From: a virus
Strand: one strand, 5' to 3'
Length of the DNA stretch: 22,312 bases
IMG/VR virus record: IMGVR_UViG_3300037502_002175
Location: 1 to 22,312 of that record
Below the pieces are notes generated by a model, which was not told the DNA's origin, did not search any database, and was given only the letters and a program-made list of their open reading frames with translations. Below, piece after piece: positions 15,201 through 22,312 of the stretch (its first letter is position 1; each line of letters starts with the position of its first letter). A program made the position numbers and the translations under genes.

Positions 15201-15908
15201 CTACACCTTTTCTTCGAGGTATTTCCAAACGTAACCACCGGCTGTTTTTCGGTATTTGTCACCTTTCGCTACTTTTTGAATTGTTTGGTGGGAAATCCCG
15301 GTTTGTCTACCAGCTTCTCTAATTCCATCATAAATAGCGATAAGGTTTCCATCTTTATCATATTGGGCAACTTGTTTTTTCATTTTGTCTGTCGCTTGTT
15401 TTAATTGTTTGGTTTTTTCAGCATGGTATTCAGGATCTTTCAATCTTTCTTTTTGCAATTTACTAGATGCTTCTGATTTCATTTTTCGATATTCAGGATT
15501 TTGCCATTGTTGTAAATTCCATTTTCTAATTCTCTTACCATGCATTTTCATAATCCTTGGACTATGTGATTTAGCTACTATTTTAGGGTCTTGGAAAGGT
15601 TTTGCGTATTTTGTCCGGTTGTACCCTATTTTTTCATTAGTTGCATTATAATTTTCGATATAATACATTTCTTTTTCGTCTAATTCACTTTCATCACATA
15701 TTTCAAGGATTTCTAACTTGAAATTTTCATGACCGTATTTTCGCATATCATCATATAACGCTTTTCGACCTCTACGGTCATCTACTCTTTCACAATCTTT
15801 TATGTGTGTTCTCACTCTTTCAGCTATATCTTTACTTTGCCCAATATATATTTTGCCATTGATTACGTTTGTTAATTTGTAAATTCCAGTTATTTTTAAA
15901 CTGTTCAT
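15201..15908 (-). CDS. GIY-YIG homing endonuclease, intron-encoded
   Basis: A 235-residue homing endonuclease. GIY lies at residues 8-10 and YIG at 21-23; Arg31 and Glu80 are the likely catalytic residues, and a GYN motif is near 96. A basic linker (about 100 to 175) and a C-terminal NUMOD1-type helix-turn-helix (NLIAIYDGIREAGRQTGISH, 190 to 225) give target specificity, as in the I-TevI and I-BmoI style of modular enzyme. It should cut intronless copies of the MuF gene and spread the intron. The ATG follows GGGGGTGATTGT. A promoter TAGACA-N17-TATAAT lies upstream inside the intron. Confidence 0.93.
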   Translation of the reverse strand: MNSLKITGIYKLTNVINGKIYIGQSKDIAERVRTHIKDCERVDDRRGRKALYDDMRKYGHENFKLEILEICDESELDEKEMYYIENYNATNEKIGYNRTKYAKPFQDPKIVAKSHSPRIMKMHGKRIRKWNLQQWQNPEYRKMKSEASSKLQKERLKDPEYHAEKTKQLKQATDKMKKQVAQYDKDGNLIAIYDGIREAGRQTGISHQTIQKVAKGDKYRKTAGGYVWKYLEEKV

Positions 15909-18528: not shown

Positions 18529-19438
18529 CTAGAATTTCAGACCTAATTTTCGAAGGTTGTCATTAACATAGTACTGGAACATATCTACGGTATGATCATC
18601 TTCTTTGATAACTTTTGGATCCTCAGTGTTTAAAGTATCCGGATCCCACTGGTATTTCTTGTGTTCCTCGATAAATATTTTGTTATTTGGAGTATCTAAA
18701 TAATAAAAACGCCCTTGAGCTAATAAGTCATGGACGTTATCAATCATATCTACTTTTTTCTTTTTTGCTATTGGATGTAACCTAATTCCGTAATCTTTAA
18801 AAACTTGGTTACGCAAAGCTCCTTCTGCTGAATCGATTGTCAGCACATCAATAGGTTTCTTGTAAGTTTCTCTAACCTTATTCATCCATTCATAAAACTC
18901 CTTCGATAAATCGCTAGGAGCCTTCTTATTTGCCTTGTTCTCCGGCGAATAATAGTAAGTATCTAATAAGATAACTCTTTGCTTTTTAGTTAGTGCAAAA
19001 GCGCCATGTGTTGTTGCTGATACCTGGTGTCCTGTATCTGTTGCCGTATCAATTAGCAGGATATCATCGTCATCCGGCAACTCATCCAAAGGGTGAAATA
19101 AAGCTATATTATAAACATTTGTTCCAAGTCCTACCGGCTCACCTAAATAAATATAACGATAATAATCATAGTCATTGCTTTTTATTCGCTCAATATCAGC
19201 AAGCATCTGCTCAGTCACAAAGCCTAGTTCGTCATTAAGATAACTGGATTCATGGACAAGATAGTTATCTTCGCCTTTTAAACTGTCCGACCACTCGTTA
19301 ATCCAATGATAAGGATTTCGTGGTGGATTGTAAGACCAAAAGAACTGGACAAAAGGAGCTAATGGATGCTTTTGCCGCATAAATGTAACATTTGTTTGGT
19401 CGAATTCTTCTGAGTCGTCAAATTCTGCTGCTTCTTCA
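18529..19438 (-). CDS. terL: terminase large subunit, exon 2 (nuclease part)
   Basis: The 3' exon of TerL, coding for residues 139 (second part) to 441. It begins EEAAEFDDSEEFDQTNVTFM, the end of Walker B and coupling region of the ATPase, continues through FVQFFWSYNPPRNPYHWINE, and contains the RNase H-like nuclease with likely metal ligands Asp269 (LLIDTATD), Asp341 (TIDSAEG) and Asp424 (DDHTVDMFQY). The first in-frame ATG lies about 19 codons inside the exon, so a naive call starting at 19380 is truncated. Joined to 20268-20683 it gives 441 residues, the usual TerL length. Confidence 0.93.
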
Positions 19439-19620
19439 CATTATGTTGCGAATATACCGTTTCCGTATATTCTCTATATGTTTCCATATAGATCAGACTA
19501 TATCTTCATCTAGGCAATAAAAAAGAGAGCCTAGATGCTCCCCGTTTCGAGTTCACTTGAACCCTACTCTACTCCCTTCCGTCAGATGACGTGGTTTCGA
19601 TAGTCGTTACACGTTTTATG

Positions 19621-20115
19621 TTAATCAAAATGACCGTTTACTACCCTTAGAATTGTTGTACTTTCCACTCCGTATTTTTTAGCCAATGCAACAGAACCAT
19701 AACCTTTTTTATATCGTTTGTAAGTTCTTTTTATTTCTTTCATTTCTTCTTCTGTTAGAACTTTACATCCTTTTTTAGGTTTCTTGAAGCCCATTTCGTA
19801 GGCGTGTTTCATTTGTTCTGACATTGACATCCATTCTAAGTTTTCAGCCCTATTATCATCTTTTATACCGTTTTTGTGATTTATGGTTGTTTTCTCAGGG
19901 TTATCATGTTTTGGTAAAAACTCTTGAGCTACAAGTCTATGAACCATAAACTCTCGTGTTTTTCCATCTTTTCTTAATGCAACCTGAACATATCCGTCAT
20001 GATTGTATCTTTTATTGGAAAGTATCTTGCCAGATTTAATACCCTTAACCATCCCCGTATCACTAACCATATAAAGTCCTTCATAACCAGTTACCCATTT
20101 CCATCGTTCAGCCAT
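19621..20115 (-). CDS. HNH homing endonuclease with NUMOD4, intron-encoded
   Basis: A 164-residue endonuclease. Residues 4 to 45 form a NUMOD4 motif (WKWVTGYEGLYMVSDTG). Residues 50 to 100 hold the HNH site: VHRLVAQEF (His59), TINHKNGIKDDNRAENLEW (His80, Asn88/Asn92). The basic C-terminus ends in a helix-turn-helix (GSVALAKKYGVESTTILRVV) for target binding. The layout is that of I-HmuI-like phage intron enzymes, which nick intronless alleles to promote intron spread. GAGGTGATATT precedes the ATG, and an extended -10 (TGTTATAAT) lies 18 bases further upstream. Confidence 0.93.
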   Translation of the reverse strand: MAERWKWVTGYEGLYMVSDTGMVKGIKSGKILSNKRYNHDGYVQVALRKDGKTREFMVHRLVAQEFLPKHDNPEKTTINHKNGIKDDNRAENLEWMSMSEQMKHAYEMGFKKPKKGCKVLTEEEMKEIKRTYKRYKKGYGSVALAKKYGVESTTILRVVNGHFD

Positions 20116-20132
20116 AATATCACCTCAGTAAT

Positions 20133-20161
20133 ATTATAACATAGTTTGGTATAGGTAACTA
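20133..20161 (-). promoter_or_regulatory. intron-internal extended -10 promoter for the HNH gene
   Basis: Minus-strand TATAAT (20133-20138) with the extended TGT before it. The -35 position (TAGTTA, 20156-20161) is weak, so activity would rely on the extended -10. Confidence 0.5.
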
Positions 20162-20267
20162 GCGTAATTTTACCATTTTGATTAACATAACTTCGCTCGG
20201 TATTACCCTCGGCTTTACGTTAGGGTGTCCACCGAATTAGAGGAGTTTATTGTGATCCATTTTGTTA

Positions 20268-20683
20268 AACCACACAGCAATAATGTTGCCAATATCGTTT
20301 GATTTTAATTTTTGGAAGTCATCCTGCCCATAAAAGTAGAATGTTGATCCTGTTTTTCTGTGCGTAATTTTAAAAGGTGCTACGGTAGGCTTAAACCGCT
20401 TGGTCATTCCAAATAGTTTAATCGCCCATTGAATCTTGTTGAATACAGAATCACGAATCGTATTACCAACTTTACGGATAACGACTACATTAGCTTTTTC
20501 GCCCTTTATGATGTACATAATCATCATAAAAACCAGCTTCAAGGCAATGACAGACGATTTAAACGAGTTACGCCCACCTTTTAAGATGTTATATGGCTTA
20601 TTTGATGTCCAAACATCTTTAAAGTGTGGATTGACATTCTTCTGGACATCAAAGACAACTCTATTTTTCTTCTTAGTTGCCAT
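20268..20683 (-). CDS. terL: terminase large subunit, exon 1 (ATPase part)
   Basis: The 5' exon, 138 codons plus two bases. The ATP-binding P-loop is GGRNSFKSS (residues 36 to 44), a variant of the more common GGRGSGKS. The exon ends at IIAVWF, the hydrophobic strand of Walker B; the acidic residues EE come from exon 2. TerL is the packaging motor and nuclease that cuts concatemers and drives DNA into the prohead. Three ATG codons lie in a row (20689, 20686, 20683); GGAG at 20692-20695 favours the third. It overlaps the terS end by 11 to 17 bases. Unspliced, the frame runs on to a stop at 20237. Confidence 0.92.
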
Positions 20684-21473
20684 CATCATCGCTCCATTCA
20701 TCGACAATGACGATCTCTTCTAAATCATCATCTGAATGCTCTTTGGTGATTCTTTCGGCTTCTGCTTTCGCTTTTGCTATTTCAGCCTTCAACTTCTCTT
20801 CCTGTAATCGTTTCTTGTCATTTTCTGATAACAAGTCAAAGTATTTGGAGAGCATTTCAAGGGCTTTCATCTTGTCAACAAGCTTAACTGATACACCATC
20901 TTTACCTTGTTTTACTTCAGTTATCAAAGTGCCGTCTACCTCGGTTGACTCTTTAAACTTCACTCTGTTCACTTCAAAAGGATTTCCTAAATCATCAAGT
21001 ACTTCCTCACGACCAAATTCAACAAAGTCGGTTATATCTGCAAAAGCAATATCAATATACTTTTGGAGTATGTCTTGTGCTTCCAAGAATATACCCTGCT
21101 GCCGTTCCCGCTTTAATCTCTCAATCTCAGTAGCTATCTTATGGTTTCTTAGTAAGCCATGTCCGTTTACCATAGCAGTTGAATAGGCACACCCATAAGC
21201 TTTTTGATAAGCCTTAGTTGCATTGAAATACTTAATATAGTATAAGCAGAATAACTCTTGCTTGTCTGTTAAATCAGTCGATTCAATAACTGGTTCCACG
21301 GTTGCAACCTTTTTATTTTTGGTTGCATCTTTTTTAGGCGATCCTCTTGACCACCCTTCGCGGCTTTTACGACTTTTTAATGTACCTAGTTTAATATCGT
21401 GTTTCTCTGCTAATGCAGCTAATGTTGTTTTTGATGTTTCAAATTCTTTTCTAATCTCTTCCCAGTTAGGCAT
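20673..21473 (-). CDS. terS: terminase small subunit
   Basis: A 266-residue TerS. Residues 1 to 45 form a helix-turn-helix for DNA recognition (WEEIRKEFETSKTTLAALAE, LGTLKSRKSREGWSRGSP). Residues 65 to 120 are the conserved Terminase_2 core (LTDKQELFCLYYIKYFNATK, AYSTAMVNGHGLLRN). A DITDFVEFG segment and a long charged coiled coil (about 205 to 245) lead to a highly acidic tail (DDDLEEIVIVDEWSDDDGN), probably contacting TerL. It recognises the packaging site and loads TerL. ATG 21473 follows AGGTGATATGTG; GTG 21476 is an alternative. Confidence 0.93.
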   Translation of the reverse strand: MPNWEEIRKEFETSKTTLAALAEKHDIKLGTLKSRKSREGWSRGSPKKDATKNKKVATVEPVIESTDLTDKQELFCLYYIKYFNATKAYQKAYGCAYSTAMVNGHGLLRNHKIATEIERLKRERQQGIFLEAQDILQKYIDIAFADITDFVEFGREEVLDDLGNPFEVNRVKFKESTEVDGTLITEVKQGKDGVSVKLVDKMKALEMLSKYFDLLSENDKKRLQEEKLKAEIAKAKAEAERITKEHSDDDLEEIVIVDEWSDDDGN

Positions 21474-21540: not shown

Positions 21541-22050
21541 TTAATCTTTTATGTATGTTGCTTCTTTTGAAAATGGAAAGTATTTAGCTCGCCCTTTAAT
21601 CACTGCGGCTTCTGCTTCTTCTTTTGTGTCATAATAACCCAAGTTAATATCCTTTCCATCCACTCTAAGTCTTGCTCTCCATCTTGGGTTCCACCTGTTA
21701 TCTAAAGATACACCTCTAATACCAACCTTACTTCGCTTATTGGAAGTTATATTTTGTGTATTTTGACCCCAAGTAACGATTCTTAAATTACTTCTTCGAT
21801 TATTAAGCGGATTGCAATCAATGTGATCTACCACCATATCCTTAGGTGGATTTGTAATTAATCTATGCAATAATTCCACTCGTTGTTGAATCACTCTTCT
21901 TATGTAGCCCCTATTATCAAGGTGCCATGTCCCTTTAAAATTTGATACTAACTCTAAATCATCAGTATCAATCATTACTTCATAAGTTTCTCCTTTACGC
22001 TTAACAAATATGATTGTGTAATCATCCTTAATTTCGTAAAGGTTTTTCAT
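21541..22050 (-). CDS. HNH homing endonuclease with AP2 DNA-binding domain
   Basis: A 169-residue endonuclease. The HNH site spans residues 60 to 95: LLHRLITNPP (His62), VVDHIDCNPLNNRRSNLRIV (Asp75-His76, Asn83, Asn88). Residues 110 to 158 match an AP2 DNA-binding domain (IRGVSLDNRWNPRWRARL, INLGYYDTKEEAEAAV). It lies between the late regulator and terS. No P3/P7 intron core or split host gene surrounds it, so it is read as a free-standing homing endonuclease. GTGGGAGGTT precedes the ATG. A promoter, a structured leader and a terminator make it a self-contained unit. It is distinct from the single-domain HNH proteins that assist terminase in some phages, because of the AP2 domain. Confidence 0.9.
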   Translation of the reverse strand: MKNLYEIKDDYTIIFVKRKGETYEVMIDTDDLELVSNFKGTWHLDNRGYIRRVIQQRVELLHRLITNPPKDMVVDHIDCNPLNNRRSNLRIVTWGQNTQNITSNKRSKVGIRGVSLDNRWNPRWRARLRVDGKDINLGYYDTKEEAEAAVIKGRAKYFPFSKEATYIKD

Positions 22051-22063
22051 TGTTATAACCTCC

Positions 22064-22145
22064 CACAGTTATTTCCCTAGGAGTGCTAAAGGGCAGAAGT
22101 TGGGAAACTTCTTGTCGAATGGGTAGCTAATCCATTCCTAGCCCT
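22064..22145 (-). ncRNA. structured leader RNA of HNH-AP2 gene (three-way junction, possible pseudoknot)
   Basis: On the minus strand, AGGGC (22141-22145) pairs with GCCCT (22090-22094), enclosing two hairpins: GAATGG/CCATTC (22117-22122, 22132-22137) and GAAGTT/AACTTC (22096-22101, 22106-22111, loop TCCC). CTAGGA (22136-22141) can also pair with TCCTAG (22077-22082), crossing the closing stem; one base is shared with each neighbouring stem, so the pseudoknot would use about 4 to 5 bp, or be an alternative fold. The ribosome site follows about 20 bases later. Its identity is not known to me. Confidence 0.6.
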
Positions 22146-22152
22146 CATAATC

Positions 22153-22182
22153 ATCATACCACACTTTTCAAATCTGTGTCTT
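22153..22182 (-). promoter_or_regulatory. extended -10 promoter of the HNH-AP2 cassette
   Basis: Minus-strand AAGACA (22177-22182), an 18-base spacer and TATGAT (22153-22158) with TGG just before it (extended -10). It overlaps the last codons of the upstream gene. The predicted start lies near 22145, exactly where the leader structure begins. Confidence 0.55.
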
Positions 22183-22312
22183 TTGTGCCATTTGTGCCAT
22201 TTGTTTCCTTTGCTAACTGCACGACAATAGAATCACGAATTCTTTTGATGTGGGAAAACGATAATCCCATGTGATTCCCAATCCATCTATAGCTTTTTCC
22301 ATCTAGGAGCCA
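22154..22312 (-). CDS. late transcription regulator, C-terminal part (sigma region 4 / ArpU-like)
   Basis: A partial gene cut by the window edge; the last 52 codons are seen. The segment SYRWIGNHMGLSFSHIKRIRDSI is a helix-turn-helix like sigma-70 region 4 and like the ArpU/RinA-type late regulators of Gram-positive phages. The end contains TNGTNGTK, made by a tandem 9-base repeat (ACAAATGGC). Regulators of this type lie just before the terminase genes and activate the packaging and structural operon. The N-terminal part is outside the window, so the exact family cannot be set. Confidence 0.72.
   Translation of the reverse strand, partial: WLLDGKSYRWIGNHMGLSFSHIKRIRDSIVVQLAKETNGTNGTKDTDLKSVV

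Follow-up and report, generated by a model that had tools for sequence, protein, structure and literature searches.

A folded leader RNA related to int-alpA in front of a phage HNH-AP2 endonuclease gene

The int-alpA RNA (Rfam RF02996) lies, as its name implies, between integrase and alpA genes, and is typed in Rfam as 'Gene; sRNA'. Structured RNAs are also found directly 5' of HNH-containing open reading frames (ORFs), as for HEARO and the omega-RNA with IscB, and the free-standing homing endonuclease genes of phage T4 carry simple hairpins that sequester the Shine-Dalgarno (SD) sequence. No function of int-alpA was found in the searchable papers, its sole mention there being as an entry among candidate sRNAs listed for E. 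coli (PMC12370729). Among phage regulators, Ltr of S. aureus phi13 activates a late promoter just behind its own gene via direct repeats (PMC13123087). Here, we compare these systems with a leader in the window, i.e., the whole 22,312-nt stretch of viral DNA analyzed.

Leader RNA and its relatives

The minus strand of the window carries an HNH-AP2 ORF of 169 aa (21541-22050; Pfam HNH_3, E 1.8e-8, and AP2, E 5.6e-5), hence the leader in front of it was read as the minus strand from 22148 to 22051. A three-way junction at 22146-22089 was the predicted fold at all lengths folded, and the three clean stems of the original prediction (P1, P2, and P3) were all recovered (Table 1), with support from homology and covariation. 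The P2 loop contains TTAGCTA, as it does in two relatives (L351 and L230). Folding energy was no better than chance for the 82-nt stretch (z -0.58) and moderately better than chance for 121 nt (z -2.6), and since such single-sequence energies are not decisive, the reality of the leader RNA was judged from homology and covariation.

Table 1 Features of the leader and its cassette in the window.
Feature	Position	Strand	Basis
Entire structured leader RNA	22048-22148	minus	match to covariance model R1, built without the window
P1 5' strand GAGGGC	22146-22141	minus	folding and covariation
P1 3' strand GCCCTT	22094-22089	minus	folding and covariation
P2 hairpin, GAATGG (22137-22132) / CCATTC (22122-22117)	22117-22137	minus	folding and covariation
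P3 hairpin, AGAAGTT (22112-22106), TCCC loop, AACTTCT (22101-22095)	22095-22112	minus	folding and covariation
Pseudoknot strand 1, UUUCCC at P3 tip	22102-22107	minus	complementarity and covariation
Pseudoknot strand 2, GGGAAA	22072-22077	minus	swap test
SD hairpin AUAAC-UGUGGGAG-GUUAU, ribosome-binding site in loop	22055-22072	minus	helix 4 of covariation test
Shine-Dalgarno GGGAG	22060-22064	minus	sequence
-35-like hexamer AAGACA (predicted)	22177-22182	minus	consensus scan
-10 hexamer TATGAT with extended TG, 6-7 nt 5' of P1 (predicted)	22153-22158	minus	consensus scan
Cassette (promoter, RNA, and HNH gene), replacing the native Ltr late promoter region and 200-aa ORF of L159	21537-22176	minus	comparison with L159

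Rfam returned nothing for the window at its cut-offs and only chance matches at E ≤ 10: RF02996 matched neither at its gathering score of 35.8 nor at E ≤ 10, and no match was obtained in the window to HEARO (RF02033) or to self-cleaving ribozyme families, nor to group I introns at the leader. The earlier suggestion of a remnant or reduced ribozyme thus found no support, nor did a group I remnant or HEARO. Relatives of the leader, however, do match int-alpA. When 397 genomes of the order were searched at the DNA level, a single locus emerged, L186, which represents the same element as viral L198; it matches the 3' half of the leader, lies 5' of an unrelated 63-aa ORF, and shows compensating changes in the P3 stem. 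A structure-shaped pattern then recovered L230, L241, L290, and L302, and a narrower one L247, L331, and L341, while the pattern scans GGNTAGGAATGGNTTAG and AAWTWACTGTGGGAGG gave chance matches, L198 excepted. Searching Bacillota genomes with RF02996 retrieved L350 and L351, along with L356 and L357 just over the cut-off. Against this cut-off of 35.8 bits, L350, L302, and L351 scored 56.3, 44.2, and 42.3, respectively, and L290 fell just under it (31.1).

A covariance model (R1) built only from L350, L290, L198, and L302 matched the window at 22148-22048 with 50.9 bits (E 4.4e-10), the sole match in 22 kb at E ≤ 10; R1 is not wholly independent of the window, since its seeds L198, L290, and L302 were reached from it by sequence, whereas L350 and L351 were found through Rfam's own model and are hence independent. 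The window thus belongs, at a significant score from a model that excludes it, to the int-alpA-like leader group of R1. The same model also matched L351, L247, L354, L241, L331, L341, L355, and L230, and scored the E. coli int-alpA copy (L359) at 35.2 bits. In an alignment of 13 sequences (A8), which includes the four model seeds, 94% of cells held standard pairs, a percentage inflated by fitting the alignment to the structure, and 17 of 20 pairs showed two-sided changes (five of six in P1, all four modelled pairs in P3). None of 500 shuffles reached any of the covariation measures, and the signal was lost once partners were slid, so that the covariation originally proposed as a check on this leader is indeed strong among its relatives. 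Taken together, these comparisons confirm that the window leader encodes a genuine folded RNA and a distant relative of int-alpA. Of the original prediction of an undescribed structured RNA, the structure therefore stands, but as relatives pass the Rfam cut-off, the RNA is best read as a divergent variant of int-alpA rather than as wholly undescribed.

Pseudoknot and Shine-Dalgarno hairpin

The P3 loop and the segment directly 5' of the SD hairpin are complementary and co-vary across relatives: UUUCCC/GGGAAA in the window corresponds to UCCCGA/UCGGGA in L290 and L350, UCCCUAUA/UAUAGGGA in L230, UCCCA/UGGGA in L241, and CCUGA/UCAGG in L351, and an equivalent pairing, CCUUA/UAAGG, can be read from the E. 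coli copy. This complementarity was not found in L302 or L247. With loop and linker limits set by hand, real pairs beat swapped ones across 13 sequences (p 0.0004) and outperformed shuffled linkers (p 0.0005), and the window pairing by itself reached p 0.0025. A pseudoknot had been proposed originally between CTAGGA (22141-22136) and TCCTAG (22082-22077); this complementarity exists, as does a pseudoknot, but because relatives keep UUUCCC/GGGAAA instead, the proposed pairing was dropped.

The SD sequence lies just past the three-way junction, i.e., directly 3' of the structure as had been anticipated, in the loop of a hairpin with two-sided changes in five of its six modelled pairs. Its stem is AUAAC/GUUAU in the window and AAUUAC/GUAAUU, AACAAC/GUUGUU, ACUAC/GUAGU, or UUUUUAC/GUAAAAA in others; the hairpin was not evident in L302, L355, L356, and L357. 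Thermodynamic folding of the window favors another SD-blocking helix, CUCCUA with UGGGAG, and this anti-SD CUCC of the linker was not adopted, being absent (as read by eye) from the linkers of L350, L290, and L230. The P3 loop UUCCC is itself complementary to the SD GGGAG. Overall, the fold, the pseudoknot, the SD hairpin, and the placement directly 5' of start codons are shown by comparison of related sequences.

Promoter, cassette, and neighboring genes

A consensus scan identified a promoter-like AAGACA-18-TATGAT with an extended -10 (22182-22153), which predicts that transcription begins on or close to the first base of P1, as the original prediction had it. Extended -10 elements resembling TGGTATAAT occur at an equal short spacing 5' of P1 in the window, L230, L241, L290, and L350. 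No terminator-like site was found between the RNA and the ORF in the window.

Upstream of the leader, the ORF at 22154-22312 encodes the C-terminal part of a phrog_1058/phrog_36 regulator, the family of phi13 Ltr. Relatives carry a conserved late promoter and initial transcript, TGnTAAAATGGGAGGCAGGACGGGGAGGC, directly after the Ltr-type gene; in Bacillaceae prophages, this TGnTAAAATGGGAGGCAGGACGGGGAGGC box lies 7 nt past the stop codon of Ltr (phrog_1058) genes (L007-L061, L062-L141), and AGGNAGG is present in 37 of 41 unique loci found through the protein alone. The AGGCAGGACGG box of the LtrC-type late leader, which lies at a fixed distance from the -10 in Bacillaceae prophages, is absent from the window, and no paper containing this string was found. 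Around the late box of these prophages, the variable sequence on the 3' side pairs with the box itself (mean z -1.35, 57 loci), and an intrinsic terminator follows within 200 nt in 17 of 56 cases versus 1.25 expected; this arrangement is similar to that of lambda Q / pR' / tR', which suggests that Ltr promoters are subject to antitermination. Spo0A-box-like sites (TTGTCGAA/TTCGACAA) occur within 300 nt downstream of the late box in 19 of 56 leaders versus 0.7 expected from dinucleotide shuffles, a possible link of prophage genes to sporulation. No support was obtained for the idea that the site behind the Ltr gene generally serves as cos, because the PVL record ends past its HNH gene, ~1 kb downstream of orf61.

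In the near-identical relative L159, a late box, a terminator, and a 200-aa gene stand where the window has the promoter, leader, and HNH gene, so that the segment specific to the window extends from ~22176 to 21537. Since promoter, RNA, and HNH gene are replaced jointly, the RNA is part of the endonuclease cassette and not of the phage late operon, an assignment based on one close relative in a comparison that gives no direction of exchange. Separately, L013, a viral contig whose regulator gene is very similar, ends where the window departs from its relatives (~22168), which may reflect a break in the assembly at a variable cassette.

The RNA directly precedes a start codon in nearly all members, including E. 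coli, where the model match (1193-1284) overlaps the start (1282) of a 318-aa ORF located after an integrase. The genes behind it encode HNH-AP2 proteins (window, L351), zinc-ribbon HNH proteins (L350, L290, L230), a 314-aa protein with a zinc ribbon and an endonuclease-like composition (L354), DUF1376 proteins (L331, L341), small ORFs (L198, L241), and a probable winged-helix protein (L355), and L302 likewise has the RNA just upstream of a gene. With genes this diverse, no single regulatory logic is obvious. The closest parallel is L351, in which an int-alpA RNA over the Rfam cut-off lies directly 5' of an HNH_3 homologue of the window endonuclease (LKNDYEIVGDVTKIFVKDS against MKNLYEIKDDYTIIFVKRK) and follows a regulator that carries a sigma-70 region 4 domain. 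The RNA was absent at seven other HNH-AP2-type loci (E3, BcoS-136, SP8, Stahl, CHPC930, L002, and L003), and relatives of the RNA precede unrelated genes. The tie to this enzyme family is thus frequent but not obligatory.

Other traces of mobile elements were also observed. In L350 (1380-2600) and L290, the RNA and zinc-ribbon HNH gene interrupt a tape-measure-like gene between common intron-like flanks (ACCGGGCAAAAYCGGTG ... AACACCGWGGTAAC...GTCCGGC), for which Rfam revealed no known intron, and no group I match at E ≤ 0.5 in the L350 flanks. In the window, terL (18529-20707) comes in two pieces, a Terminase_3 N part at 20237-20707 and a C part at 18529-19380, and a NUMOD4-HNH ORF (19621-20115) sits between these; this interruption is probably an intron, and gave no Rfam match at the cut-offs. 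A GIY-YIG/NUMOD1 endonuclease ORF between morphogenesis genes (15201-15908) is the third homing-type gene of this phage.

Proposed role and comparison with known RNAs

We consider it likely that the leader is a divergent int-alpA-type RNA acting in cis as the 5' UTR of the HNH-AP2 gene, with translational control through the pseudoknot and SD hairpin. Transcription is predicted to start at P1. By comparison with relatives, the RNA folds as a three-way junction whose joining segments (CUAG, CGAAA-type, and CUG-type) are conserved, and the P3 loop UUUCCC pairs with GGGAAA immediately 5' of the short hairpin holding the SD in its loop. This fold would most likely hold endonuclease translation low, and a phage or host factor or a ligand may bind the conserved junction and thereby shift the balance between pseudoknot and SD hairpin; a second state, closed by pairing of the loop UUCCC with the SD GGGAG, would be plausible. 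As one close relative shows, the endonuclease gene travels together with its promoter and RNA as a single cassette. The RNA thus probably controls translation of the gene behind it, and, of the roles originally put forward, regulation of endonuclease translation is the best reading, to which the SD hairpin and the placement before start codons point.

Several other roles were weighed against this one. The RNA could be an sRNA acting in trans, as filed by Rfam, with its position before an endonuclease gene incidental: the promoter directly at P1 would allow a discrete RNA to be made. However, the window lacks a terminator between RNA and ORF, and nearly all members, including the E. coli copy, lie directly 5' of a start codon with a covarying SD hairpin, which makes a trans-acting role unlikely. 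Alternatively, the leader may stabilize the 5' end and present the ribosome site without any switching, P1 blocking decay and the hairpin presenting the SD; a predicted transcript beginning at P1 and an SD in the open loop of a conserved hairpin are consistent with this, but conserved junction sequences and a covarying pseudoknot exceed the needs of a stabilizer, and we regard such a constitutive function as quite improbable. A protein-binding or guide-like partner of the endonuclease, resembling HEARO or omega-RNA and serving in cutting or mobility, would agree with the repeated pairing with HNH and zinc-ribbon endonucleases (window, L230, L290, L350, L351, L354), the RNA lying 5' of the ORF as in HEARO, and the cassette moving as a unit. 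Yet the same RNA precedes DUF1376 and small non-nuclease genes, the seven HNH-AP2 relatives listed above do without it, the Pfam matches to the window endonuclease include no RuvC domain, and no HEARO match was found, so that this role seems very improbable. Both the trans-acting and the guide-like or protein-bound roles account for the SD hairpin less well than a cis-acting leader. Finally, a leader of an Ltr/LtrC-activated late operon outside the HNH cassette, likely at first from the conserved late box behind Ltr regulators and the position directly behind a phrog_1058/Ltr-type gene, where relatives keep a late promoter and leader, is rejected as next to impossible because the window leader lacks AGGCAGGACGG and near-identical L159 has the box without the RNA.

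The cis-acting leader gives int-alpA, an orphan family filed as sRNA, a concrete and testable role, and indicates that mobile phage endonucleases can bring along a promoter and a regulatory RNA of their own, a point relevant to how they persist without harm to their host phage. More speculatively, int-alpA as a whole might be not an sRNA but a broad group of translational switches in phages and mobile elements, in which the junction senses a phage-state signal, the P3 loop pairs with either the GGG strand or the SD, and homing endonucleases use the promoter and RNA as a portable module; we hold this broader proposal only tentatively.

Among described systems, HEARO and the omega-RNA share with the window a structured RNA directly 5' of an HNH-containing ORF, but the window RNA has another fold, no Rfam match, and no RuvC domain found in its associated protein, and its relatives are not confined to nuclease genes. 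The T4 hairpins are likewise candidate counterparts as translational control elements 5' of mobile endonuclease genes, although they are simple, whereas the window leader places a pseudoknotted junction ahead of its SD hairpin. Closest is int-alpA, with its three-way junction joined by CUAG, CGAAAAG, and CUG, and a P3 loop complementary to a 3' GGG: the window retains CUAG and CUG, has CGACA in place of CGAAA, and carries its GGG segment as GGGAAA (22077-22072). Unlike the family as described, however, the window RNA is too divergent for detection by the RF02996 model, is flanked by an Ltr regulator and an HNH gene rather than by integrase and AlpA, and belongs to a group found in phages of Bacillota 5' of endonuclease genes. 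In addition, the 71-position Rfam match extends no further than the GGG strand, whereas the window continues with a covarying SD hairpin and start codon, which places the hairpin outside that family description. Compared with Rfam's int-alpA, sequence analysis therefore points to a divergent branch in Bacillota phages, located in endonuclease cassettes, with a covarying pseudoknot and an SD hairpin as new elements.
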